This document shows positions 50,063-63,425 of a stretch of 64,000 nt of DNA, in pieces. Source of the stretch: Ideonella sp. Lineage in GTDB: Bacteria; Pseudomonadota; Gammaproteobacteria; Burkholderiales; Burkholderiaceae_C. A program made the translations under genes and the position numbers. The stretch's first letter is position 1, and each line of letters opens with the position of its first letter. Under the pieces are notes generated by a model that was not told the origin of the DNA, ran no database searches, and was given only the letters and a program-made list of their open reading frames with translations. The stretch spans positions 62,001-126,000 of the forward strand of contig JABTUC010000004.1 in NCBI GenBank assembly GCA_015075545.1, read 5' to 3'.

Positions 50063-50647
50063 ATGGATTCGCAAGCCCCGTTGCCGTCGTTCCTGCTGTC
50101 GCCCGGCGTGTCGATGATCCAGGCCGCGCCGTGGCACGCGCAGCCGGTCACCCTCAGGTCGCCGGCGCTGACGGTGATGACCGACCTCACCAAGGTGAAG
50201 GCGGCCACCATCCGCCCCGAGCTGACGCTGCACCAGGCCGAGCAGACCATGATCTACCAGGGCGTGCGGCTCCTGTTCGTGGTCAGCGAGATGCCTGCGC
50301 TCGAGGGCCTGATCACCACCACCGACCTCAGCGGCGAGCGCCCGATGAGCCTGCTGCACCAGCGCAACCAGCGCTACGACGAGTTGCGCGTGGCCGACGT
50401 GATGACGCCGCTGCGCATGCTCGAGGCGATCGAGTTCGACTCGATCGCCGGCGCCATCGTCGGCAACGTGGTGGCCACGCTCAAGCGCGCCGGCCGCAAC
50501 CACCTGCTGGTGGTGCAGGCGGCGGCACACGGCGAGCCGCGGCGCGTGCGCGGCGTGATCTCGCGCGCGCAGGTCGAGCGCCAGCTGGGCACGCAGATCG
50601 CACCGGTCCCCAGCTCCTACTCCGAGATGGGGCACGCGCGGCTGTAG
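50063..50647 (+). CDS. CBS-domain protein
   Basis: A 194-residue protein made of two CBS motifs. The first is 'ATIRPELTLHQAEQTMIYQG' with 'LLFVVSEMPALEGLITTTDL'; the second 'VADVMTPLRMLEAIEFDSI' with 'NHLLVVQ..' and 'RVRGVISRAQVERQLG'. TGGAGG precedes the ATG at 50063. CBS pairs bind adenine nucleotides or SAM; a stand-alone protein like this may sense energy state. It precedes the tetR gene by 63 bp but probably has its own transcript. Confidence 0.87.
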   Translation: MDSQAPLPSFLLSPGVSMIQAAPWHAQPVTLRSPALTVMTDLTKVKAATIRPELTLHQAEQTMIYQGVRLLFVVSEMPALEGLITTTDLSGERPMSLLHQRNQRYDELRVADVMTPLRMLEAIEFDSIAGAIVGNVVATLKRAGRNHLLVVQAAAHGEPRRVRGVISRAQVERQLGTQIAPVPSSYSEMGHARL

Positions 50648-50684
50648 CCGCCCGCTGCCCGCGGCGGCGGAAGCTGCGGCCCGG

Positions 50685-50702
50685 GTTAACTGTCTGGTTA
50701 AA
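50685..50702 (+). promoter_or_regulatory. Probable TetR operator before the tetR start
   Basis: GTTAAC (50685-50690) and GTTAA (50697-50701) are spaced by one 12-bp period, forming TTAACTGTCTGGTTAA. Read on the other strand this is TTAACCAGACAGTTAA, which matches 14 of 16 positions of the site at 56668-56683 upstream of tctC. It lies only 9 bp before the tetR ATG, so binding would block transcription or early elongation of tetR. The identity of the binding protein is inferred from position. Confidence 0.6.
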
Positions 50703-50710
50703 CTGGGCGC

Positions 50711-51352
50711 ATGCCGGCCCGTCGACGCCCCGCCCCTGCACGCGACCCCGAGCCGACGCGCGCGCGCATCCTGGCGGCGGCGAAGGCCGAGTTCGCGCGC
50801 AGCGGCCTCGGCGGCGCGCGCGTCGACCGCATCGCCGAGCGCGCCGGCGCCAACAAGCGCATGCTGTACTACTACTTCGACAGCAAGGACGGCCTGTTCC
50901 GCGCCGTGCTCGAAGCCACCTACGAGCACATCCGCGAGGCCGAGAAGGCGCTGCACCTCGACGCGCTCGATCCGCACGAGGCGATCCGCCGGCTGATCGA
51001 GTTCACCTGGGACTACCACCTGCAGCACCCCGAGTTCCTGAGCCTGCTCAACAGCGCCAACCTGCACCGCGCCGAGCACCTGAAGAGCTCGACCAAGGTG
51101 CGGCGCATGCACTCGCCGTTCGTCGCGATGATCCGCGACATCCTCGAGCGCGGCGTGCGCGCAGGCGTGTTCCGCAGCGGCGTCGACGCGGTGCAGCTCT
51201 ACATCTCGATCGCCGCGCTGGCGTACTTCTACCTCGGCAACAACTACACGCTGTCGGCGATCTTCGGGCGCGACCTGAAGGCGAAGAAGGCGTGCCAGGA
51301 ACGCCTCGCCCACATGACCGAGCTGGTGCTCGGCTACCTGCGAAAGGCTTGA
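50711..51352 (+). CDS. TetR-family transcriptional regulator
   Basis: A 213-residue repressor. The N-terminal helix-turn-helix is 'RARILAAAKAEFARSGLGGA' and 'RVDRIAERAGANKRMLYYYF' with 'DSKDGLFRAVLEATYEHI', the canonical TetR/AcrR pattern. The C-terminal ligand domain is helical ('IEFTWDYHLQHPEFLSLLNS') and resembles regulators with a TetR_C RutR-like domain. It heads an operon-like run with the epimerase and DapA-like genes. A shared operator suggests it also controls the TctCBA operon 5 kb away. The inducer is probably a pathway substrate. Confidence 0.9.
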   Translation: MPARRRPAPARDPEPTRARILAAAKAEFARSGLGGARVDRIAERAGANKRMLYYYFDSKDGLFRAVLEATYEHIREAEKALHLDALDPHEAIRRLIEFTWDYHLQHPEFLSLLNSANLHRAEHLKSSTKVRRMHSPFVAMIRDILERGVRAGVFRSGVDAVQLYISIAALAYFYLGNNYTLSAIFGRDLKAKKACQERLAHMTELVLGYLRKA

Positions 51353-51360
51353 AATGAATC

Positions 51361-51440
51361 CCCCTCGATGCGCCTTCGGCGCCTCCCCCAGGGGGGCGCC
51401 GCCAGCGGCCCGGCACAGCCGGATCCGCGGCGGCCGCTTG
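51361..51440. repeat. REP-like intergenic repeat, copy 1
   Basis: The tract CCTCCCCCAGGGGGGCGCC followed by a core at 51401-51432 recurs at 57721-57810; the 32-nt cores (57768-57799 in copy 2) differ at two positions. It contains short hairpins and lies between tetR and the epimerase gene. This resembles the dispersed palindromic repeats common in Comamonadaceae-like genomes. Confidence 0.65.
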
Positions 51441-51484
51441 GTTGCGGCGGTCTCGTGCCACGCGGGTGCTGTTTGGCACCTTGG

Positions 51485-52510
51485 ATGACTGACATGCTGC
51501 CCGCACGCTTCGACAACGTCGAACACCTCGAAGAGGTGATGACCACCCCGTCGCCGGCGCTGGTGGAGACGCTCGCGCGCGTCGACGGCGACATCCTGGT
51601 GCTCGGCGTCGGCGGCAAGATGGGCCCGACCTTGGCGCGGCTGGCCAAACGCGCGGCGCCTTCCAAGCGCGTGATCGGCGTGGCGCGCTTCTCCGAGCCC
51701 GGGCTGCGGGCGGCGCTGCAGCGCCACGGCGTCGAGTGCATCGCCGCCGACCTGCTGTCGCGCGAGCAGCTCGCCGCGCTGCCCGACGTGCCCAACGTCG
51801 TCTTCATGGCCGGGCGCAAGTTCGGCTCGGCCGGCAGCGAGTGGCTGACCTGGGCGATGAACGCCCACGTGCCGGCGCTGGTGGCGCAGCGCTACGCACG
51901 CTCGCGCATCGTCGCCTTTTCCACCGCGTGCGTGTACTCGTTCGTCGACGTGCACGGCGCGGGCGCACCCGAGTCGGCGCCGCTGACTCCGCCCGGCGAG
52001 TACGCCAACTCGTGCGTCGCGCGCGAGCGCCTGTTCGAGCACTTCTCGCACGCGCTCGGCACGCCGGGGCGGCTGATCCGGCTGTCGTACGCGATCGACA
52101 TGCGCTACGGCGTGCTGCACGACCTGGCGCGCAAGCTGCTGGCGCGCGAACCGATCGACCTCGCGATGGGCCACGCCAACATCATCTGGCAGGGCGACGC
52201 CAACGAGCAGGCGCTGCGCGCGCTGGCGCACTGCACCGCCCCGACCAGCGGTCTCAACGTCAGCGGGCCGGTGCAGCGCATCCGCGACCTCGCCACCGCG
52301 CTCGCGCAGCGGCTCGGCGTGCAGCCGGCGTTCACCGGCAGCGAAGCGCCCACCGCGTGGCTGGTGGACACCGCAGAGGCGCAGCGACTGTTCGGTGCGC
52401 CCGCGGTGCCGTTGGCGTCGATGCTCGACTGGACCGCCGACTGGGTTTCACGCGACCTGGTGAGCCTGAACAAGCCCACGCACTACGAAGCGCGCGACGG
52501 CAAGTACTGA
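51485..52510 (+). CDS. NAD(P)-dependent epimerase/dehydratase (extended SDR)
   Basis: A 341-residue Rossmann enzyme. The dinucleotide motif is 'DILVLGVGGKMGPTLARLAK', the catalytic Ser/Thr strand is 'RIVAFSTACVYSF', and the active-site Tyr lies in 'GEYANSCVARERLFEHF'. In classical members Tyr is followed four residues later by Lys; here that position is Cys, so the proton relay is unusual. 'GLNVSGPVQRIRDLATALA' closes the sugar-binding domain. It lies 132 bp after tetR and 10 bp before the DapA-like gene, and is presumably part of the same pathway. Confidence 0.87.
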   Translation: MTDMLPARFDNVEHLEEVMTTPSPALVETLARVDGDILVLGVGGKMGPTLARLAKRAAPSKRVIGVARFSEPGLRAALQRHGVECIAADLLSREQLAALPDVPNVVFMAGRKFGSAGSEWLTWAMNAHVPALVAQRYARSRIVAFSTACVYSFVDVHGAGAPESAPLTPPGEYANSCVARERLFEHFSHALGTPGRLIRLSYAIDMRYGVLHDLARKLLAREPIDLAMGHANIIWQGDANEQALRALAHCTAPTSGLNVSGPVQRIRDLATALAQRLGVQPAFTGSEAPTAWLVDTAEAQRLFGAPAVPLASMLDWTADWVSRDLVSLNKPTHYEARDGKY

Positions 52511-52520
52511 GAACCACACC

Positions 52521-53587
52521 ATGCACTGGAGCGACCTTCCCGCCGACGCGCTGGCCGTGCTGCGTCGCGGCGCCGTGATGCCGGCGCACCTGCTGGCGCT
52601 CGACGCGCAGCGCCGGCTCGACCCGCGCCGCCAGCGCGCGCTGACGCGCTACTACCTCGACGCCGGCGCCGGCGGGCTGGCGGTGGGCGTGCACTCGACG
52701 CAGTTCGCGATCCGCGAGCAGGGCCTGTACGAGCCGGTGCTGGCGCTGGCGGCGCAGACCGCGCGCGAGTGGGTGCCGCTCGAAGGGCCGCGGCCGCTGT
52801 TCATGACCGCGGGGCTGGCCGGGCCCACTGCGCAGGCGCGGCGCGAGGCGCAGACGGCGCGCGGCCTGGGCTATCACGCCGGCCTGCTGAGCCTGGCGGC
52901 GCTGAAGGCGCGGGCGAAGACGAGCTGATCGCGCACTGCACCGCGATTGCCGAGGAGCTGCCGCTGGTCGGTTTCTACCTGCAGAGCGCGGTCGGCGGCA
53001 TCGAACTGCCGGTGGGTTTCTGGCGCCGATTCGCGGCGATCGACAACGTGGTGGCGATCAAGATGGCGCCGTTCAACCGCTACCGCACGCTCGACGTGAT
53101 CCGCGGCGTGGTCGAAGCCGGCGCTGAAGCGCGCGTCACGCTGTACACCGGCAACGACGACCACATCGTGCTCGATCTGGTGAGCCCGTTCGTCGTGCGC
53201 CGCGGCGGCGAAGACATCACCGTGCGCATCGAAGGCGGCCTGCTCGGCCACTGGAGCGTGTGGACGCGCGCCGCGGTGCTGCTGCTGCAGCGCATCCACG
53301 CGGCGCGCGCGTGCGGCGCGATCGACGACGCGCTGCTCTCACTCGACTCGCGCGTCACCGACTGCAACGCCGCGCTGTTCGACGTGGCGCACGGCTTCGC
53401 CGGCTGCATCGCCGGCTGCCACGAGGTGCTGCGCCGCCAGGGCCTGTTCGAAGGCATCTGGTGCCTCGACCCGGCCGAAGGCCTGAGCCCGGGCCAGGCC
53501 GACGAACTGACCCGCGTGCACGCGGCGCACCCGGAGTTGCACGACGACGACTTCGTGCGCGAGCACCTGGCGCGCTGGCTGGGCTGA
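52521..53587 (+). CDS. Dihydrodipicolinate-synthase/NAL-family aldolase, one frameshift
   Basis: About 355 residues, longer than typical DapA (about 300). The TIM-barrel features are 'YLDAGAGGLAVGVHSTQFAI' (replacing the G-T-T-G-E loop), Tyr in 'LVGFYLQSAVGG' and the Schiff-base lysine in 'NVVAIKMAPFNRYRTLDVI'. The frame changes near 52915. Members cleave or dehydrate 2-keto-3-deoxy sugar acids or form pyruvate adducts. It is 10 bp after the epimerase gene. With the enolase-family dehydratase at 60810-62255 it could form a dehydration-then-aldol-cleavage route. Confidence 0.85.
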
Positions 53588-53642
53588 GGCCGCAAGGGCC
53601 GCAGGTCCGTCGGTGGCTGCTCCCGGGACCGCCCCGGCGAGG

Positions 53643-53975
53643 TCACTTCTTCATCGCGTCTTGCTTCATCGCGTCCTTGGCCATCGCGTCCTTGGCCATC
53701 GGATCCTTCTTCATCGCATCCTTCTTGGACATGGTGTCCTTCTTCATGCCGTCCTTGTGCATGGCGTCCTTGCCCATCGGGTCCGTGCCCATCGTGTCCT
53801 TCTTCATGCCGTCGTGCTTCTTCATGCCGTCCTTGGACATGGCATCGGCCGACATCGCTTCCTTCTTCATGCCGTCCTTGGGCATCTCCTGGTTCTTCAT
53901 CGCATCCTGCGCGAGCACGGCCGTGCCGGCGCCGAGCAGGAAGGCAGAAACGATCGCGGCGGTGAGGGTCTTCAT
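53643..53975 (-). CDS. Pentapeptide MXKDX-repeat secreted protein
   Basis: A 110-residue protein. A signal peptide ('MKTLTAAIVSAFLLGAGTAV') is followed, from about residue 24 to the end, by some 17 five-residue units of the type D-x-M-x-K ('DAMKK', 'DGMKK', 'DPMAK', 'DTMSK'). This is the MXKDX-repeat family, found mostly in betaproteobacteria and of unknown function. The Met/Lys/Asp periodicity should give an amphipathic, possibly metal- or oxidant-binding helix in the periplasm. Slight irregularities ('HDGMKK', 'DTMSKK') show unit-level slippage. A cytochrome remnant lies just upstream. Confidence 0.87.
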   Translation of the reverse strand: MKTLTAAIVSAFLLGAGTAVLAQDAMKNQEMPKDGMKKEAMSADAMSKDGMKKHDGMKKDTMGTDPMGKDAMHKDGMKKDTMSKKDAMKKDPMAKDAMAKDAMKQDAMKK

Positions 53976-54052
53976 GGGGGTTCCTTGCACAGACAAAGGT
54001 TGCGCGTCGCGAGCGACGCAGAGGCGTTCGTCGGACTGCGGCGCGCACGCGC

Positions 54053-54196
54053 TCAGGATCCTCCGAACCAGTTGTAGCCCTGGTGCACCAGCACGAAGAG
54101 CGCGGCGGCGTTGAGCCAGTGCGTGGCGCGCAGCCACGCCGGGTAGATCGACGGCGCCGCGACGGCGGACCGCAGGGGAAGCGTGTGCGCTGGCAT
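54053..54196 (-). pseudogene. Cytochrome b-type membrane protein remnant, probably fused to the end of a lost gene
   Basis: A 47-residue frame from ATG 54196. It begins like the first helix of thiosulfate-reductase/YedZ-type cytochrome b proteins ('YPAWLRATHWLNAAALFVL', with the haem-ligand His of the first helix) and then ends 'VHQGYNWFGGS', which does not belong to that family and looks like the tail of another protein. The usual partner of such cytochromes near MXKDX proteins is a molybdopterin oxidoreductase. A deletion joining the two genes would give this scar. This reading is inference. Confidence 0.4.
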
Positions 54197-54287
54197 GCGG
54201 CGTAAGTCGCCCGCCATCGCGATTCCTTACAGCGGCGCCTGGGCCGCCTTCGCGCGCGGCCTGCGCCGCGCGCTATCGCAGCATGGC

Positions 54288-55070
54288 CTACTGCATGTAC
54301 CAGCCGTGGCTCACGACGATCGACTGCCCGGTCAGCGCGTTGGTCGGGAACGCGGCCAGGAAGACCGCGAGCCCGGCCACGTCTTGTGTGGTGGTGAACT
54401 CGCCGTCGACGGTCTCCTTGAGCATCACGTTGCGCACCACGTCGGCCTCCGAGATGTGCAGCTCCTTGGCTTGCTCGGGGATCTGCTTCTCGACCAGCGG
54501 CGTGCGCACGAAGCCGGGGCAGATCACGTTGGAGCGGATGCCCGCCGCAGCACCCTCCTTGGCGACCACCTTGGCCAGGCCGAGCAGGCCGTGCTTGGCG
54601 GTGACGTACGGCGCCTTCAGCGGCGAGGCCTCGTGCGAGTGCACCGAGCCCATGTAGATGATGCTGCCTCCGCGCTTGGCGGCGATCATCGCGCGCATCG
54701 CGGCGCGCGTGGTGAGGAAGGCGCCGTCGACGTGCACCGCCAGCAGGCGCTTCCAGTCGGCGAACTTCAGCTCGACCAGCGAGCTGATGATCTGGATGCC
54801 GGCGTTGCTGACCAGCACGTCGACGCCGCCCCAGGCCTTGACCATCTTGGCGAAGCCGGCTTCGACCTGCGCCTCGTCGGTGACGTTCATCGCCACCGCC
54901 ATCGCGGTGCCACCGGCCTGGGTGATCTTGGCTGCTGCGGCCTCGCCCGCGGCCAGCGAGAGGTCGGCGATGCAGACCTTGGCGCCTTCGCGCGCGAACT
55001 CGGTGGCGATCTCGTTGCCGATGCCGCTGGCAGCGCCGGTGATCAAGGCGGTCTTGTTGGTGAGTTGCAT
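54288..55070 (-). CDS. 3-Hydroxybutyrate dehydrogenase (SDR)
   Basis: A 260-residue short-chain dehydrogenase. The cofactor motif is '[20 protein letters not shown]', with 'NAGIQ' and the catalytic Ser/Tyr/Lys in '[20 protein letters not shown]' (Y-V-T-A-K follows). The ending '[18 protein letters not shown]' is characteristic of 3-hydroxybutyrate dehydrogenases. It interconverts 3-hydroxybutyrate and acetoacetate with NAD+. AAGGAG precedes the ATG. It lies 27 bp after the acetoacetate decarboxylase gene, forming a ketone-body operon that may feed polyhydroxybutyrate turnover. Confidence 0.9.
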
Positions 55071-55097
55071 GGTGAAGCTCCTTCTTCGATGGGGTTT

Positions 55098-55838
55098 TCA
55101 GCGGCGCAGGTAGTCGTGGACCACCGTGCCGAGAGGCAGCGTCGCGTCGGCGACGATGTGAACGGCCGACAACACCTCGAGCACGGGCAGCGCCGCCACC
55201 GGGGCCAGCGCGTGCGCGTGCAGGTCGAGCGCGCCGGGGCCGCTCCAGGCGCCCTTGAGGTTGATCTCGGTCATGCGGTAGCGCACCAGCTCGCAGATGC
55301 GCAGGCTGCCGTCGACGTGCGGCATGATCTTCAGCAGGTAGGCCGGCGCGCCCAGCGCGGCGGTGGCCGCGGCGGCGTCGACCGCCTTGTGCTTGAAGCC
55401 CATGGTGCCGGTGGCGACGCGGAAGTCGCTGTAGTCGAGCGTGCCGACCAGGGTGTCCTTGTGCACGCGCAGTTCGGGCCTGCCGAGCTTCTTCGGAAAA
55501 CCCCACAGTTCGCGGCCGGCGGCGATCGGCGGGTGGTCGTTGAGGTACATCGAGTGGACGTAGCCGCCCTCCTCGTTGCCGAAACGCACCGGGATCACCT
55601 GCCCCGATTCGCTGTAGGCGCCGAAGCCGGTGGAGTCGGGCATGTTGATGAACTCGTACTTGACGATCGCGTCCAACGGCACCAGCGGCGCCGGCACCAC
55701 CTTGGCCAGCGCCGCCGGGTCGGTGCGGTAGGTGATGATCAGGTACTCGCGGTCGACGAAGCGGTACGGTCCGATCGGATACGCGGGGTTGGTCAGCGGC
55801 ATCGCGAACGCTTCGCGACGCACATCGGATTCGGTCAT
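55098..55838 (-). CDS. adc: Acetoacetate decarboxylase
   Basis: A 246-residue enzyme. Hallmarks are '[20 protein letters not shown]', '[20 protein letters not shown]' with the Schiff-base lysine in the 'PKK' segment, and '[20 protein letters not shown]'. It converts acetoacetate to acetone and CO2 through an imine. AAGGAG lies 6 bases before the ATG. The downstream dehydrogenase gene shares the substrate acetoacetate, which strengthens both calls. Confidence 0.92.
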
Positions 55839-56137
55839 CGGAACTCCTTGCGCAGCATGCGGTCTGCGCTCTTTGCATGGTGTGCCGATTGACGGGTGCG
55901 CGGCCGATAAGTTCCGGCGCTGCGCCGCTGCTACGCGCCTAATCCTCGCCTCACGTTGGCCTCATGCAGCGCTCACCCGGCATCGCTAAGGTGCCGCGAC
56001 GAGAAATCCCGATGCCGATGATGTCCATGGCGCGAACGCAACTTGCCCAACGCGCCGCCGGCCGCAGTGAGGGCCGCGAAGGCGCGCGACGCATGGCACC
56101 GGGTCCGAGATCGCGCCGAGTTTCGAAGGAGATCGAC

Positions 56138-56566
56138 ATGAACCGCAACTTCCGATTGGCCGCAATGGCGGCCGTGCTCGTCACTCTGGGCCTGAGTGGG
56201 CGCGTGGTGCTGGCGGCGCAGGAGCTGCCGGCGGTGCAGCACAGCGGCGCCGTGGCCTACATCAACGGCGGGGTCGGCGAACTGCAGGCCAAGGCGATGG
56301 AGAAGGCCGGCGCCGACTGGCCGCTGATGATCGTGTACGCCAAGGACACCAAGCCGCGCAACGAGTTCATCGCCAACGCCAACACGGTGATCCGCAACGC
56401 CAAGGGCGAGGCGGTGCTGAAGGTCGACGGCGCAGGCCCGATCGTGCTGGCCAAGCTCGAGCCCGGCAACTACACGGTCGAAGCCACGCACGATGGCAAG
56501 GCGGTGCATCGCAAGGTCGACATCAAGGAAGGCGGGCACCAGCAGATCGAGATGCTCTGGCAGTGA
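56138..56566 (+). CDS. Secreted carboxypeptidase-regulatory-like protein
   Basis: A 142-residue protein with a signal peptide ('AAMAAVLVTLGLSGRVVLAA') and a beta-sandwich-like body: 'VAYINGGVGELQAKAMEKAG', 'TVIRNAKGEAVLKVDGAGPI' and 'LEPGNYTVEATHDGKAVHRK', the pattern of carboxypeptidase-regulatory or transthyretin-like domains. AAGGAG precedes the ATG by 8 bases. It is probably periplasmic. It lies between the ketone-body operon and the tct operon, and a hairpin separates it from tctC. Confidence 0.78.
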   Translation: MNRNFRLAAMAAVLVTLGLSGRVVLAAQELPAVQHSGAVAYINGGVGELQAKAMEKAGADWPLMIVYAKDTKPRNEFIANANTVIRNAKGEAVLKVDGAGPIVLAKLEPGNYTVEATHDGKAVHRKVDIKEGGHQQIEMLWQ

Positions 56567-56638
56567 GTGCCGGCGCAGGGGGCTGAGGCCCCTTGCGGCG
56601 CGCGGCGGGCGCGTCCGCAGCCGTCCGGGGTTTTCACG

Positions 56639-56684
56639 TTGACAAACCCCGGGCGCCGCAGCGATAGTTAACCACCCAGTTAAC
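56639..56684 (+). promoter_or_regulatory. tctC promoter with overlapping TetR-type operator
   Basis: TTGACA (56639-56644) is a perfect -35 hexamer. GATAGT (56663-56668), 18 bp further, is a fair -10. GTTAAC-CACCCA-GTTAAC (56667-56684) overlaps the end of the -10 and the start point, and matches the tetR upstream site in reverse orientation (14 of 16). A 9-bp inverted repeat, CCGGGGTTT/AAACCCCGG (56625-56633, 56644-56652), overlaps the -35 and may also end upstream transcripts. Repression by the nearby TetR protein is inferred. Confidence 0.6.
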
Positions 56685-56708
56685 ATCATCGTTGCGAGGA
56701 CGAAGCTC

Positions 56709-57719
56709 ATGCATCTGCGCACCTTCCTGAAATCCCTGCTGGCCGCTGCCGCCGGCCTCACGCTGGCGGGCGCCGCCCAGGCGCAGAACTGGAAGCCGAC
56801 GCGGCCGATCAACCTGATCGTGCCGTGGGCGGCCGGCGGCTCGACCGACCAGGTGACCCGCGTCGCCGCGGCCGAACTCGAGAAGGCGCTCGGGCAGACG
56901 ATCGTCGTCGTCAACCAGCCGGGCGCCTCGGGGGCCATCGGTACCAAGAGCGCGTTCGACGCGCCACGCGACGGCTACACCTGGACCGCCGGCGCCGCGC
57001 AGGACCTCGGCACCTACGAGACGCTGGGCAGCCTGAAGGCGCGCATCAGCGACTGGAACCTGTACCTCAACGTCGCCAACGTGCAGGTGATCGGCGTCAA
57101 CCCGAAGACGCCGTACCAGAACGCCAAGGAACTGCTCGACGCGATGAAGGCCAAGCCCGGCCAGATCAGCGTCGCCACCGCCGGCGTCACCTCGGCCGGC
57201 CACAACGCGATGGAGCTGATCAGCAAGGTCACCGGCGTCAAGTACCGGCACGTCACCTACGACGGCGGCAACCCCGCGGTGGTGGCCACGGTGGCCGGCG
57301 AGGCCGACGTCACGACGCAGCTCGCGGTCGAGCAGGCCGACATGATCCGCGGCAAGCGGCTGCGCCCGCTGGCCACGGTGAGCGACAAGGCGCTGGTGCT
57401 CGAAGGCTACGGCACGATCCCGCCGCTGTCGGCCACGCTGCCGGGCTTCAGCGCGCCGACCAACTACTTCGGCATCTTCATCCCGAAGGGCGTGCCCGAC
57501 GAGGTGATCAAGACGCTCGACAAGATCTGGGCCAACCAGATCGTGCACAGCGAGGCGCTCAAGAAGTACGCCGCCAGCCGCGGCGCGCTGTTCGCGCCGC
57601 AGTACGGCGAGGCGGCGCAGAAGGCGGTGTTCCCGGCGATCCAGGCCAACGCCTGGCTGCTGTTCGACGGCGGCAAGGCCAAGGTGTCGCCCGATACGGT
57701 CGGAATTCCGCGGCCATGA
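56709..57719 (+). CDS. tctC: Bug-family tripartite tricarboxylate transporter receptor (TctC)
   Basis: A 336-residue periplasmic receptor with a signal peptide ('LAAAAGLTLAGAAQAQ'). The ligand motifs are clear: 'RPINLIVPWAAGGSTDQVTR' (carboxylate loop 1), 'NQPGASGAIGTKSAFDAPRD' and 'ATAGVTSAGHNAMELISKVT'. It has the usual Bug length. It captures a carboxylate-bearing solute for TctA/TctB. A REP-like element separates it from tctB, allowing higher receptor expression. The downstream catabolic genes point to a sugar-acid-like ligand rather than citrate. Confidence 0.93.
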   Translation: MHLRTFLKSLLAAAAGLTLAGAAQAQNWKPTRPINLIVPWAAGGSTDQVTRVAAAELEKALGQTIVVVNQPGASGAIGTKSAFDAPRDGYTWTAGAAQDLGTYETLGSLKARISDWNLYLNVANVQVIGVNPKTPYQNAKELLDAMKAKPGQISVATAGVTSAGHNAMELISKVTGVKYRHVTYDGGNPAVVATVAGEADVTTQLAVEQADMIRGKRLRPLATVSDKALVLEGYGTIPPLSATLPGFSAPTNYFGIFIPKGVPDEVIKTLDKIWANQIVHSEALKKYAASRGALFAPQYGEAAQKAVFPAIQANAWLLFDGGKAKVSPDTVGIPRP

Positions 57720-57720
57720 C

Positions 57721-57810
57721 CCACCCCCGAAGCGGCCTGGCGGCCGCCTCCCCCTCGAGGGGGCAACGCCAGCGGACCGGCAAAGCCGGATCCGCGGCGT
57801 TCACTTGGTG
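57721..57810. repeat. REP-like intergenic repeat, copy 2, inside the tct operon
   Basis: The element holds the hairpins GCGGCC-TGGC-GGCCGC and CCCCCTCGAGGGGG (57749-57762) and the 32-nt core at 57768-57799 shared with copy 1 at 51401-51432. It fills most of the 148-bp gap between tctC and tctB. Such hairpins can stabilise the upstream receptor message. Copies elsewhere in the genome are expected but cannot be seen here. Confidence 0.65.
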
Positions 57811-57867: not shown

Positions 57868-58401
57868 ATGTCGACACCTGAACTTGCCGAGCCGTCGGCC
57901 AGCGCGCGCACCGACTGGTTCGCCGCCTGGGGCTGGATCGTGCTCGGCACGGCGATCCTGATCGGCTCGATCACGATGGATCGGCTCGAGCACCAGCACA
58001 TCAACCCCTACACCGTGCCGGGGCTGCTGCCCGGGCTGCTCGGGCTGGCGATGATCATCCTCGGCAGCGTGCTGGCGCTGCGCAGCTGGCGCCGCGGCGC
58101 GCTGCGCGAGGCGGCACCGGCGTGGACCGAGCACCGGCGCGACGAGCGCCGCCGCATCGTCGTGGTGGCCGCGCTGTGCGCGGGCTACGGCGTGGTGCTG
58201 GTCGGGCACGGCCTGCCGTTCTGGCTCGCCTCGACGATCTACGTCACCGGCTCGATCCTGATCCTCGAAGGCATCAGCCGCGACCCGTCGGCGCGCCGCC
58301 TCACGGCGAAGTCGGTCGCGCAGGCGCTGGTGATCGGCGTCGCCGCGTCGCTGATCACGCAGTGGGTGTTCCAGGATCTGTTCCTGGTGCGCCTGCCCTA
58401 G
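57868..58401 (+). CDS. tctB: Tripartite tricarboxylate transporter small subunit (TctB)
   Basis: A 177-residue protein with four membrane helices and a hydrophilic loop, the TctB layout: 'GWIVLGTAILIGSITMDRLE', 'NPYTVPGLLPGLLGLAMIIL' with the conserved P-G-L-x-P motif, 'LPFWLASTIYVTGSILIL' and a final helix. It is essential for the transporter although its precise role is unclear. TctA follows 13 bp later. Confidence 0.88.
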   Translation: MSTPELAEPSASARTDWFAAWGWIVLGTAILIGSITMDRLEHQHINPYTVPGLLPGLLGLAMIILGSVLALRSWRRGALREAAPAWTEHRRDERRRIVVVAALCAGYGVVLVGHGLPFWLASTIYVTGSILILEGISRDPSARRLTAKSVAQALVIGVAASLITQWVFQDLFLVRLP

Positions 58402-58414
58402 AAGCGAGCCGCGC

Positions 58415-59950
58415 GTGTTCCAGGGGCTGGAGGACCTCGGGCGCGCGTACATCGGGTTCCTCAACCCGATGACGCTGCTCTACGGCCTGGGCGGCGCGTT
58501 CGTCGGCATCGTGATGGGCATCCTGCCGGGGCTGTCGGCGACGCTGGCGATCGCGCTGCTGACCACGCTGACGATCAAGCTGCAGCCCAACGACGCCATC
58601 CTGGTGCTGATCTGCTCGTACGTCGGCGCGCTGTACGGCGGCTCGCGCACCGCGATCCTGCTCAACATTCCGGGCACTGCGGCCAACGCCGCGTCGTGTG
58701 CCGACGGCCACGCGCTGGCGATGAAAGGCCAGGCCGGCCGCGCGATCGGCATCGCCACCTCGGGCGCGTTCGTCAGCACGCTGCTGGGCGTGCTGGCCCT
58801 GGCCACCTTCACGCCGGCGCTGGCCGAGGTGGCGCTGTCGTTCGGCGCCTTCGAGTTCTTCTGGCTGGCGCTGTTCGGCGTGGTGATCTCGGGCAGCATC
58901 GTCGGCAACGATCCGATCAAGGGCTGGCTGATGGGCCTGCTCGGGCTGTTCATCGCGCAGATCGGCCAGGAGGGCATCTACGCCTACGACCGCTTCACCT
59001 TCGGCTGGGACGAGCTGTCGGGCGGCATCGCGCTGATCCCGGCGCTGGTGGGCGCGTTCGGGCTGGCCGAGGTGCTGACCACGCTGGCCGACCCCATCGA
59101 GCGCCGAATCGTCGAGCTGCGCGACTCGGTGCTGCCGCGCTTTCGCGAGATCGTGCAGTACTGGCGCACCGTGCTGCGCTCGGGCGTGATCGGCGTCTTC
59201 ACCGGGCTGCTGCCCGGCGTCGGCGAAGACGCCGGCGCCTGGATGTCGTACGCCGCGGCCAAGGCGGTGAGCAAGGAGAAAGAGCAGTTCGGCAAGGGCT
59301 CGATCGACGGCCTGATGGCCGCCGAGACCGGCGACATGTCGTCGATCCCCGGCCACATCATTCCGTGCCTGGCGCTCGGCATTCCCGGCTCGGCGCCGTC
59401 GGCGGTGCTGATGGCGGCGATGATCATCCACGGCATCCAGCCCGGGCCGATGCTGATGATCCAGCATCCGCACTTCGTCTACGAGGTGGTGGCGATGACG
59501 ACGCTGGCGTCGATCACCATCTTGCTGTTCGGGCTGTTCGGCGTGCGGCCGCTGCTGCACGTGCTGCGCGTGCGGCGCACGGTGCTGATGCCGATCGTCT
59601 TCCTGCTGTGCGTGGTGGGCGCGTTCGCCACCGCGTCGCGGCTGTTCGACGTCTACGCGATGATCGCCATCGGCCTCGTCGCGTTCCTGCTGCGCCGGCG
59701 CGGCTACGAGATGGCGCCGCTGGTGCTGGGTCTGGTGCTCGGCCCGCTGCTCGACAAGAGCCTGCGCCGCGGGCTGGTCCTGTCCGACGGCAGCCTCGAG
59801 CCGTTCTTCACGCGGCCGATCTCGATGGGCTTCGCGTTCGTCACCATCTTCACGATCGCGCTCTACGTGCCGGCGTTCCGCGCGCAGGTCGACCGCGTGC
59901 GCGTCGCCACGGTCGCTGGCGTGCGGGCGCTGATCGGGCGGCGCGGGTAG
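58415..59950 (+). CDS. tctA: Tripartite tricarboxylate transporter large permease (TctA)
   Basis: A 511-residue permease with about 12 helices. Family signatures are 'GAFVGIVMGILPGLSATLAI' near the N-terminus (the G-x-x-P-G-L-s hairpin) and the repeated 'IGVFTGLLPGVGEDAGAWMS' plus 'IPCLALGIPGSAPSAVLMAA' in the second half, where the substrate and Na+/H+ sites lie. It begins at GTG 58415. It is followed 11 bp later by the isomerase gene, so transport and catabolism are cotranscribed. Confidence 0.93.
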   Translation: MFQGLEDLGRAYIGFLNPMTLLYGLGGAFVGIVMGILPGLSATLAIALLTTLTIKLQPNDAILVLICSYVGALYGGSRTAILLNIPGTAANAASCADGHALAMKGQAGRAIGIATSGAFVSTLLGVLALATFTPALAEVALSFGAFEFFWLALFGVVISGSIVGNDPIKGWLMGLLGLFIAQIGQEGIYAYDRFTFGWDELSGGIALIPALVGAFGLAEVLTTLADPIERRIVELRDSVLPRFREIVQYWRTVLRSGVIGVFTGLLPGVGEDAGAWMSYAAAKAVSKEKEQFGKGSIDGLMAAETGDMSSIPGHIIPCLALGIPGSAPSAVLMAAMIIHGIQPGPMLMIQHPHFVYEVVAMTTLASITILLFGLFGVRPLLHVLRVRRTVLMPIVFLLCVVGAFATASRLFDVYAMIAIGLVAFLLRRRGYEMAPLVLGLVLGPLLDKSLRRGLVLSDGSLEPFFTRPISMGFAFVTIFTIALYVPAFRAQVDRVRVATVAGVRALIGRRG

Positions 59951-59961
59951 GTTCGCCGGCC

Positions 59962-60813
59962 ATGCAGTTCGCGCTCTGCAACGAGGTGCTGCAGCCGCTG
60001 CCGTTCGAGCGCCAGTGCGAGCTGGCCGCGCAGCTCGGCTACGACGCGCTCGAGGTGGCACCGTTCACGCTCGCCGACGACCCGATGACGATCGACGACG
60101 CGCAGGCGCGGCAATGGCGGCGCAGCGCCGAAGACGCCGGCATCTCGATCGGCGGCCTGCACTGGCTGCTGGTGGCGCCGGCGGGGCTGTCGATCGTCGG
60201 CGCCGACGCCGCGCTGCGCGCGCGCACCGCGGCGGTGATGGAGCGGCTGGTCGAGCTGTGCGCGCTGCTCGGCGGCCGCTACCTGGTGCACGGCTCGCCC
60301 AAGCAGCGCACGCCGGGCCCCGGCGACCCACCGGCCACCGTACGCGAGCGCGCGCTCGAGTGCTTCGCGCGCGCCGCACGTCGCGCCCAAGCGTGCGGCG
60401 TCACCTACTGCATCGAGCCGCTGGCGCCGCGCGAGACCGGCTTCGTCAACACGGTGGCCGAGGCGGCGGAGCTGGTCGACACGATCGGCTCGCCGGCGCT
60501 GAAGACGATGCTCGACTGCAGCGCCGCCGGCCAGGCCGAGCGCGAGCCGGTGGCCGCGCTGCTGGCGCGCTGGATCCCGAGCGGGCACGTCGCGCACGTG
60601 CAGGTCAACGACCCCAACCGCCGCGGCCCCGGCCAGGGCACGATGGCGTTCGCGCCGATCGTTCGCACGCTGCTGCAACTGCAGGCGCAGGGGCACTACC
60701 GCGGCCTCGTCGCGGTGGAACCGTTCGACTACGTGCCCGACGGCCTCGGCTGCGCGGCGCGCGCGATCGGCTACCTGAAGGGTCTGGTCGAGGCGATCGG
60801 AGCATCGACATGA
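59962..60813 (+). CDS. Sugar phosphate isomerase/epimerase (AP_endonuc_2 TIM barrel)
   Basis: A 283-residue TIM barrel. It starts 'MQFALCNEVLQPLPFERQCE', with 'AAQLGYDALEVAPFTLADDP', and has metal-ligand strands 'YCIEPLAPRETGFVNTVAEA', 'TMLDCSAAGQAEREPVAALL', 'GHVAHVQVNDPNRRGPGQGT' and 'YRGLVAVEPFDYVP'. Glu, Asp, His and Glu positions suit a divalent metal site that isomerises a ketose or keto-acid. Its stop overlaps the next gene by 4 bp. The substrate is unknown. Confidence 0.87.
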   Translation: MQFALCNEVLQPLPFERQCELAAQLGYDALEVAPFTLADDPMTIDDAQARQWRRSAEDAGISIGGLHWLLVAPAGLSIVGADAALRARTAAVMERLVELCALLGGRYLVHGSPKQRTPGPGDPPATVRERALECFARAARRAQACGVTYCIEPLAPRETGFVNTVAEAAELVDTIGSPALKTMLDCSAAGQAEREPVAALLARWIPSGHVAHVQVNDPNRRGPGQGTMAFAPIVRTLLQLQAQGHYRGLVAVEPFDYVPDGLGCAARAIGYLKGLVEAIGAST

Positions 60814-62255
60814 CCGACGCGCCGCGCTTCGTCGTGCGCGAGATCGCGCTGCACGAGCGGCCGGTGCGCTTGAGGTTGCCGTTTCGCTTCGGCGTCGTCA
60901 CGCTCACCGAGTGCCCGCAGGCGTTCGTGCATGCGCGCATCGAGCTCTTCGATGGCCACAGCGCGTGGGGCGGCGCTGCCGAGCTGATGGCGCCGAAGTG
61001 GTTCGACAAGAACTTGGGCTTGAGCAACGACGACAACTTCGCCCAGTTGCGCGACGTGCTGCGGCTGGCGCGCGGCGCGTACCTCGCCGACGCAACGCCC
61101 GACACCGCGTTCGGCCACTTCGCGCGCCACCACGACGCGCACCAGGCCGCCGCCGCCGCGCGCGGCCACAACCCGCTGCTGGCAGCGTACGGCCCCGCGC
61201 TGATCGACCGCGCACTGCTCGACGCGCTGTGCCGCGCGCTCGGTGTCTCGTTCTACGCCGCGCTGCGCGGCAACCTCGCCGGCCTCGGCGCGCGGCATGC
61301 GCAGTTCGCGCCGTTCGACTGGCCGCGCGTGCTGCAGGGCCTACCGCCACCTGCGGCGTCGATCGCCGCACGGCACACGGTGGGGCTGGTCGACGCGATC
61401 ACCGCCGCCGACCTCGCGCACCCGGTCAACGACGGCCTGCCCGAAACACTCGAACAGGTGATCGCGCGCTACGGCCACCGCCACTTCAAGCTCAAGGTCG
61501 GCGGGCGCATCGACGACGACGTGGCGCGGCTGACGCGAATCGCCGCGGTGCTCGACCGCATCGACGCGCCCTACCTCGTCTCGCTCGACGGCAACGAGCA
61601 GTACGCCGACGCTGCGGGGGTCGACGAGCTGCTGGCGCGCATGCGGCAGACTCCGGCGCTGGCGCGGCTGTGGGCGTCGATCGCCTTCATCGAGCAGCCG
61701 ATCGCGCGCAAGACCGCGCTCGACACCGACGTGCGCGCGATCGCCGCATCGAGGCCGGTGATCGTCGACGAGTCCGACGGCGAGCTCGACGCCTTCGTGC
61801 GGGCGCGCGATCGCGGCTACAGCGGCATCTCGAGCAAGACCTGCAAGGGCGTGTACCGCTCGCTGCTCAACGCCGCGCGCTGCGCGGCGTGGAACGCACA
61901 GGCGCCGGCCGGCGCGCCGCGCTTCTTCATGTCGGGCGAAGACCTCACGACGCAGGCCGGCCTCGCGGTGCAGCAGGACCTGGCACTCGTGAACCTGCTC
62001 GGCATCGCGCACGTCGAGCGCAACGGCCACCACTACGTCGACGGCATGGCCGCGCTGCCGCAAGCCGAGCAGCGCGCGTTCCTCGCCGCGCACCCCGACC
62101 TCTACGAACACAGCCACGGCGCGACGCGGCTGCGCATCCGCGACGGCCGGCTGGCGATCGGCTCGCTCGACTGCACCGGCTACGCCAGCGCGGCGATGCC
62201 CGTGTGGGACGCGATGACGCCGCTGCAGCCCTCGCCCGCCTTCCCCAGGAGTTGA
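60810..62255 (+). CDS. Enolase-superfamily enzyme (mandelate racemase/muconate lactonizing type)
   Basis: A 481-residue enzyme, clearly longer than the 370-400 of most relatives. The active site is complete: Lys227-x-Lys229 ('HRHFKLKVGG'), metal ligands Asp260 ('SLDGNEQY'), Glu295 ('IAFIEQPIA') and Asp320-Glu321 ('PVIVDESDGE'), and Lys343 ('GISSKTCKG'). The two opposing lysines favour 1,1-proton transfer or syn elimination. A sugar-acid dehydratase or a cycloisomerase is likely. The added length sits mostly in the capping domain and C-terminus, regions that set specificity. It overlaps the isomerase gene and is followed by a dehydrogenase. Confidence 0.87.
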   Translation: MTDAPRFVVREIALHERPVRLRLPFRFGVVTLTECPQAFVHARIELFDGHSAWGGAAELMAPKWFDKNLGLSNDDNFAQLRDVLRLARGAYLADATPDTAFGHFARHHDAHQAAAAARGHNPLLAAYGPALIDRALLDALCRALGVSFYAALRGNLAGLGARHAQFAPFDWPRVLQGLPPPAASIAARHTVGLVDAITAADLAHPVNDGLPETLEQVIARYGHRHFKLKVGGRIDDDVARLTRIAAVLDRIDAPYLVSLDGNEQYADAAGVDELLARMRQTPALARLWASIAFIEQPIARKTALDTDVRAIAASRPVIVDESDGELDAFVRARDRGYSGISSKTCKGVYRSLLNAARCAAWNAQAPAGAPRFFMSGEDLTTQAGLAVQQDLALVNLLGIAHVERNGHHYVDGMAALPQAEQRAFLAAHPDLYEHSHGATRLRIRDGRLAIGSLDCTGYASAAMPVWDAMTPLQPSPAFPRS

Positions 62256-62261
62256 CCCCAG

Positions 62262-63425
62262 ATGGCCACGCAACGACTCGGCATCGTCATGAACGGCGTC
62301 ACCGGGCGCATGGGCATGAACCAGCACCTGATCCGCTCGATCGTCGCGATCCGCGCGCAAGGCGGCGTGACGCTCGCCAACGGCGATCGCGTGATGCCCG
62401 ACCCGCTGCTGATCGGCCGCAACGCCGAGAAGATCGAGGCACTCGCCCGCGCGCACGGCATCGCGCGCTTCGGCACCAACCTCGACGCCGCGCTCGCCGA
62501 CAAGAACGACAGCGTGTTCTTCGACGCCGCCACCACGCAGCAGCGCCCGACGCTGCTGGCCGCGGCGCTGCGCGCCGGCAAGCACGTGTATTGCGAGAAG
62601 CCGATCGCCACCACGCTCGCCGAGGCGCTGGAGATCTGCAAGCTCGCCAAGGCCTCGGGGCTGAAGCACGGCGCGGTGCAGGACAAGCTGTTCCTGCCCG
62701 GCCTGCGCAAGCTCGACCTGCTGCGCCGCGCCGGCTTCTTCGGCCGCATGCTGGCAGTGCGCATCGACTTCGGCTACTGGGTGTTCGAGGGCGACCTGCA
62801 GCCGATCCAGCGGCCGAGCTGGAACTACCGCGCCGAAGACGGCGGCGGCATGATCCTCGACATGATGTGCCACTGGCGCTACGTGCTCGACAACCTGTTC
62901 GGCGAGGTCAAGGCCATCACCTGCCTGGGCGCTACGCACATCGGCCAGCGTTGGGACGAAGCCGGCAAGCCGTACACCGCCACCGCCGACGACGCCGCCT
63001 ACGCCACCGCGCAGCTCGTGGGCCACCACGGCGAGCCGGTGGTCGCGCAACTGACGATGAGCTGGGCCACGCGCGTGCGCCGCGACGACCTCGTCACCTT
63101 CCACGTCGACGGCACGCACGGCTCGGCGGTGGCCGGCCTGCAGGAATGCCGCGCGCAGAGCCGCGTGACGACGCCGCGCCCGGTGTGGAACCCCGACGTC
63201 AAGCAGACGATGAACTTCTTCGACCAGTGGCAGGAGGTGCCCGACGCGCAGGAGTACGACAACGGCTTCAAGCTGCAATGGGAAGCCTTCATCCGCCACG
63301 TGGTCGAGGATGCGCCCTACCAATGGACGCTGCCCGAGGGCGCCAAGGGCGTGCAACTGGTGGAGTGCGCGCTGCAGAGCTGGAAGGAGCGGCGATGGGT
63401 GGACGTGCCGGCGTTGGCGGTATGA
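62262..63425 (+). CDS. Gfo/Idh/MocA-family oxidoreductase
   Basis: A 387-residue NAD(P)-dependent dehydrogenase. The N-terminal Rossmann region is 'RLGIVMNGVTGRMGMNQHLI' and the family motif is 'AGKHVYCEKPIATTLAEALE', with the catalytic EKP lysine. The C-terminal domain has 'GGGMILDMMCHWRYVLDNLF' (the D-x-x-x-H substrate pair). The nucleotide loop is G-V-T-G-R-M-G, which differs from the usual GxGxxG. It lies 6 bp after the enolase-family gene and ends the operon. It would oxidise a hydroxyl of the imported solute or an intermediate. Confidence 0.9.
   Translation: MATQRLGIVMNGVTGRMGMNQHLIRSIVAIRAQGGVTLANGDRVMPDPLLIGRNAEKIEALARAHGIARFGTNLDAALADKNDSVFFDAATTQQRPTLLAAALRAGKHVYCEKPIATTLAEALEICKLAKASGLKHGAVQDKLFLPGLRKLDLLRRAGFFGRMLAVRIDFGYWVFEGDLQPIQRPSWNYRAEDGGGMILDMMCHWRYVLDNLFGEVKAITCLGATHIGQRWDEAGKPYTATADDAAYATAQLVGHHGEPVVAQLTMSWATRVRRDDLVTFHVDGTHGSAVAGLQECRAQSRVTTPRPVWNPDVKQTMNFFDQWQEVPDAQEYDNGFKLQWEAFIRHVVEDAPYQWTLPEGAKGVQLVECALQSWKERRWVDVPALAV

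Follow-up and report, generated by a model that had tools for sequence, protein, structure and literature searches.

A 64,000-nucleotide stretch of an Ideonella sp. contig (JABTUC010000004.1, positions 62,001 to 126,000), here called the window, carries a gene for a TetR-family regulator, tetR, and further along the same strand a predicted operon that begins with tctC, the solute-binding component of a tripartite tricarboxylate transporter. A 16-bp inverted repeat lies before each. We consider with high confidence that the TetR protein (50711-51352) is a repressor at both predicted operators, controlling the tetR side and the tctC operon and released by an inducer, and control of both operons by this protein is very probable from the comparisons made here. 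What can be read directly from the genomes is where the sites lie, that they are conserved and that they occur together with this TetR. The original prediction had joined the two operons into one regulon with the tetR product as its regulator, a proposal supported by searches of the whole genome, by orthologues in relatives, by co-occurrence across genomes and by comparison of recognition helices. What began as a resemblance between two sites is now the prediction of a regulon for which both the regulator and a binding consensus can be named.

Two predicted operators and their regulator

Both 16-mers, TTAACTGTCTGGTTAA before tetR (operator 1) and TTAACCACCCAGTTAA before tctC (operator 2), are present where they had been placed, operator 1 ending 9 bp upstream of the tetR ATG (50711). 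Each is an inverted repeat of the form TTAAC-N6-GTTAA that joins one TTAACCA half to one TTAACTG half, which is why reverse-complementing operator 1 raises its match to operator 2 from 11 to 14 of the 16 positions. The better match on the reverse strand, from which opposite orientations had been proposed, is thus real, but orientation carries little meaning for an inverted repeat bound by a dimeric regulator. The GTTAA units 12 bp apart are likewise found in both sites and follow from GTTAAC being its own reverse complement. Their reading as a direct repeat is ruled out by relatives with TTCAC...GTGAA and GTAAC...GTTAC, which are inverted and not direct; the sites TTCACCAATTGGTGAA, GTAACCAATTGGTTAC and TTAACCAGCTGGTTAA from relatives are all inverted repeats. 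A further candidate, AATTCA-N8-TGAATT, seen in 8 of 84 tetR upstream stretches, was rejected as a separate operator, being the TTCAC-type site together with its outer AA and TT.

A scan of the window with each site pattern, allowing up to three mismatches, returned only the positions of operators 1 and 2 (shuffle means 0.00 for the first pattern and 0.01 for the second). We then searched the whole genome, which comprises 3,691,677 bases and is estimated to be 85% complete. When up to one mismatch was allowed, the dyad TTAACYRNNYRGTTAA occurred at two sites only, the two operators, both with 0 mismatches; the reversed control of the same dyad at the same tolerance also gave 2 per strand. Exact matches to the looser pattern TTMACYRNNYRGTKAA numbered 2 in the genome, against 0 for the controls. 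The motif is therefore not scattered at random over the genome, as it might have been, but occurs twice, both times at the tetR/tctC cluster. When the window and its sister L040 were scored with the matrix described below the two dyads reached 22-26 while the next best words reached at most 6.7, and operator 2 is identical before tctC in L040.

The overlap of operator 2 with the -10 region of a promoter with a TTGACA -35 element also holds, since the last base of the -10 is the first base of the operator, an arrangement that suits steric repression. This promoter, TTGACA-18-GATAGT, was the sole sigma-70-like site detected in 50600-56760 (shuffle mean 0.3). In the mechanism we propose, a TetR dimer would repress its own gene by binding the 16-bp dyad TTAACYRnnYRGTTAA in front of it, and from operator 1 it would probably also repress the co-directional epimerase and DHDPS-like genes. 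Bound at the -10 and start region of the tctC promoter it would exclude RNA polymerase from the presumed operon of tctCBA, isomerase, enolase and dehydrogenase genes. Its release would be brought about by a small molecule, probably either the substrate that is transported or an intermediate of the pathway. The coordinates of these features are collected in Table 1.

Table 1. Predicted regulatory sites and genes of the two operons, in window coordinates
Feature	Position	Strand	Details
Operator 1	50686-50701	.	Inverted repeat upstream of tetR
tetR, TetR-family regulator, proposed binder of both operators	50711-51352	+	213 amino acids; Pfam TetR_N and TetR_C_29
NAD-dependent epimerase-like gene, downstream of tetR	51494-52510	+	Pfam Epimerase 34 bits (cut-off 20.9)
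DHDPS-like gene in two frames (frameshift)	52521-53587	+	Two open reading frames
tctC promoter	56639-56668	+	-35 TTGACA 56639-56644, spacer 18 bp, -10 GATAGT 56663-56668
Operator 2	56668-56683	.	Inverted repeat upstream of tctC
tctC, solute-binding protein, tripartite tricarboxylate transporter	56709-57719	+	Pfam TctC 97 bits (cut-off 27)
tctB	57868-58401	+	Pfam TctB 49.7 bits (cut-off 29.1)
tctA	58415-59950	+	Pfam TctA 435.1 bits (cut-off 28.9)
TIM-barrel sugar isomerase/epimerase-like gene	59962-60813	+	Pfam AP_endonuc_2 118.8 bits
Enolase-superfamily gene (MR/MLE C-terminal)	60810-62255	+	Pfam MR_MLE_C 46.4 bits (cut-off 29.4)
Gfo/Idh/MocA-type dehydrogenase	62262-63425	+	Pfam; PDB 3oqb 631.4 bits

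Sites and regulator in relatives

TetR relatives were drawn from three sources: 399 family genomes (of which the loci of the 30 best matches were taken), a contig collection (80 of 187 loci kept) and 40 larger stretches. From these we assembled 84 tetR upstream stretches (identity at least 50%), with duplicates left in and the window and its sister present twice each. At its best match to the dyad, 5 of these stretches showed no mismatch, 21 showed one and 16 showed two, against averages of 0.03, 0.38 and 0.98 for permuted dyads, while the remaining 42 had at least three mismatches. A matrix trained solely on sites upstream of tetR relatives was then run on 66 loci, the set left from 92 after dereplication at 90% TetR identity, which removed the sister L040. 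At places away from tetR the matrix found 54 sites with a score of at least 18, in 43 of the 66 loci, compared with a mean of 0.83 for 200 permuted matrices, and in 23 loci a distant site accompanies a tetR site. With one of the permuted matrices the number of distant sites rose to 23; perhaps that permutation nearly restores the matrix.

The motif is also kept before the orthologous genes, where for tctC and the DHDPS-like gene we counted sites within 250 bp of the start of orthologues with at least 45% and 60% identity, respectively. At a score of at least 13 a site precedes tetR in 41 of 66 loci, tctC in 12 of 17 and the DHDPS-like gene in 7 of 10 (permuted-matrix means 0.36, 0.085 and 0.055 respectively), and at 17 or more it still precedes 8 of the 17 tctC and 7 of the 10 DHDPS-like orthologues. 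Since the matrix had its training sites from tetR upstream stretches, there is some circularity in the tetR count, but none in the counts for the other two genes. The three DHDPS-like genes that lack a site of their own are those of the window and L041, which lie downstream of the epimerase gene, and that of L083, which directly follows tetR, while a DHDPS-like gene located apart from tetR carries its own site.

Across the 399 family genomes an exact match to TTMACYRNNYRGTKAA was found in 66 of the 78 with a close TetR (best TetR match at E ≤6.4e-70) versus 58 of the 321 others, hits being counted irrespective of their linkage to tetR; the reversed control matched in 15 of the 78. The half-sites are mainly of three types, TTAAC, TTCAC and GTAAC, and they vary with the recognition helix. 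Among 59 loci with a site score of at least 15, 38 carry Leu and 21 carry Met at residue 51 (window numbering); C stands at half-site position 3 in 37 of the Leu51 loci, and 19 of the Met51 loci have no C half-site (Fisher p = 2.9e-12, with relatedness ignored). Where residue 54 is His, position 1 is mostly G in 7 of 10 loci, against 3 of 49 where it is Tyr. These counts are suggestive of an association between recognition-helix residue 51 and operator position 3, one that involves few independent changes.

Several observations weigh against a regulon under this TetR. The residue states change just 2-3 times on a quick tree built with the helix-turn-helix columns removed, so the link between helix and operator is not independent proof, and a test of independent pairs for residue 51 against the operator letter gave 1 pair on starred branches and 2 on all, which is not significant. 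No site scoring at least 13 precedes tetR in 25 of the 66 relatives, including L041 with a TetR 80% identical, or tctC in 5 of the 17 orthologues. The degenerate motif is also present in 58 of the 321 genomes that lack a close TetR, and in two genomes, G273 and G336, the exact hit and tetR lie on different contigs. A Chelatococcus plasmid that holds the TetR gene and most of the gene set has no word scoring above 7.9. Finally, no promoter of the sigma-70 type was recognised for tetR in the scan of 50600-56760.

Some of these observations would fit another regulator, either a different TetR or a global factor, that binds the sites and has tetR merely as one of its targets. The genomes with a degenerate match and no close TetR are what such a regulator might leave, the genome encodes 7 further TetR-like matches at E ≤0.001, and the assignment of this TetR to the sites is made from sequence. 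We nevertheless consider this explanation very improbable: a motif present just twice in the genome, both times beside this cluster, is ill-suited to a global factor. Across genomes the motif goes with this TetR and its half-sites vary with this TetR's recognition helix, while the 7 other proteins have at most 39% identity in matches that are partial. It is likewise very improbable that TetR, though bound at both sites, works chiefly by activation or looping and not by simple repression. Some TetR-family proteins do activate, and in the window, as in many relatives, the region has an operator of the one dimeric regulator on either side, but the overlap of operator 2 with the -10 suits steric repression, and looping is not favoured as the main mechanism because the distance between the sites varies from ~6.0 kb in the window to 3.0 kb in L040 and, in many relatives, ~0.7 kb. 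That the resemblance arose by chance or from a shared repeat element, to which the hits of the reversed control and a separate interspersed repeat in both operons might point, is hardly credible, given that the controls in relatives exclude chance and that the repeat differs from the dyad in sequence and location and has 21 copies versus two for the dyad.

That repeat, with core GCCAGCGGMCCGGCAMAGCCGGATCCG, is intergenic and lies after tetR (51370-51440) and after tctC (57730-57800); at up to two mismatches the core has 21 genome copies and 0 in the controls. Wider-spaced dyads were also seen. In seven loci with distant TetR relatives of Burkholderia type (L079, L080, L082, L084, L085, L087 and L089), CGAACCGGTTCGTTAC-like words ~200-230 bp before tetR are the best, though poor, match to the dyad. 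In 4 of the 84 tetR upstream stretches there is a GTAAC-N10-GTTAC, and a wider-spaced GTAAC...GTTAC dyad lies upstream of the ABC transporter operon that belongs to this gene set on the Chelatococcus plasmid (L160, 5803-5822). The CGAACCGGTTCGTTAC-like words and GTAAC-N10-GTTAC are perhaps a wider-spaced candidate operator of a sister subfamily.

Gene content of the predicted regulon

The two window pieces of the DHDPS-like gene gave no Pfam hit, while the intact orthologue in L040 is a single open frame of 364 amino acids that matches Pfam DHDPS at 36.8 bits (cut-off 22.1); the split in the window is either a real frameshift or an assembly error. The TIM-barrel isomerase-like protein has D-psicose and D-tagatose 3-epimerases as relatives in the PDB. 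The isomerase, enolase-type and Gfo/Idh proteins did not reach any NCBIfam cut-off, and searches of the cluster proteins against Pfam, NCBIfam and PDB sequences gave no substrate.

In relatives the transporter changes. All five loci scanned for neighbours (L043, L049, L054, L121 and L122) have a part of an NMT1-type ABC transporter, with extra neighbours that are PhyH-like (L121, L122), DUF993 (L054) or methionine-synthase-like (L121). The Chelatococcus plasmid brings together TetR, ABC transporter, enolase, dehydrogenase, DHDPS-like and isomerase genes. On an Erwinia plasmid the TetR gene is divergent from dehydrogenase, isomerase, MFS and DHDPS-like genes, with a dyad scoring 16.2 in between, and two plasmid TetR relatives in other gene settings have best scores of 9.0 and 16.0. 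This gene content is best read as a regulon for catabolism of a sugar type, with a transporter that differs from one relative to another. A search of the literature by titles and the starts of abstracts found no description of this gene set or regulon, which seems not yet to have been described.

More tentatively, it is possible that this is a widespread proteobacterial regulon for an undescribed sugar-type pathway, made up of the Gfo/Idh dehydrogenase, the TIM-barrel isomerase, the enolase-superfamily enzyme and the DHDPS-like protein, in which the transporter has been swapped between lineages and the TTAAC, TTCAC and GTAAC half-sites have diverged together with residues 51 and 54 as a specificity code. 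The natural half-site variants provide a test of base choice by TetR recognition helices, and the predicted operators give a handle for finding the substrate by binding assay, reporter or inducer screen.

Between the two operons lies a reverse-strand pair of genes (54288-55838) for a 3-hydroxybutyrate dehydrogenase-like protein (378 bits, cut-off 340) and an acetoacetate decarboxylase (404 bits, cut-off 150). Their membership of the regulon is not supported: they are on the opposite strand, the decarboxylase query matched in 1 of 121 loci, the window counted, and the dehydrogenase query had relatives at just 27-34% identity among the matches listed. In the sister L040 tctC follows tetR after ~2.9 kb. 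Between the DHDPS-like gene and the reverse-strand pair the window also encodes a small secreted-looking protein (53643-53985, - strand) with short repeats of the M-x-K-D type (KDGMKKD...).

Relation to known systems

The regulator belongs to the TetR family both by its domains (TetR_N 54.1 bits, cut-off 24; TetR_C_29 156 bits, cut-off 26.2) and by its predicted operators, which are inverted repeats at its own gene and at a target promoter. Its best NCBIfam relative is RutR, but its scores are far under the equivalog cut-offs (TIGR03613, 65 bits against 368; NF011584, 47 against 230) and we rejected membership of RutR itself; judged by sequence, it is distantly RutR-like and a regulator of a known kind. 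The RutR consensus TTGACCAnnTGGTCAA has the layout and inner letters of TTMACCAnnTGGTKAA of the present system, whereas half-site position 3 is G in RutR and A or C here. RutR controls pyrimidine-utilisation genes in E. coli, while no pyrimidine degradation genes were present among the cluster genes scanned, rut genes not having been sought in the rest of the genome. One published account describes RutR as a repressor of the rut operon and of its own gene, with a palindrome of ~16 bp as its binding site (PMC10891134). The predicted window system is alike in having a palindromic operator of about this length with a dyad layout.

The arrangement also resembles that of autoregulated local TetR repressors of catabolic operons, with the regulator adjoining its target and a dyad before both, one of them overlapping the -10. 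As in TctCBA operons, all three transporter subunits are present in the window, in the order C-B-A and all above the Pfam cut-off, whereas in relatives the gene set is paired instead with an NMT1-type ABC or MFS transporter.

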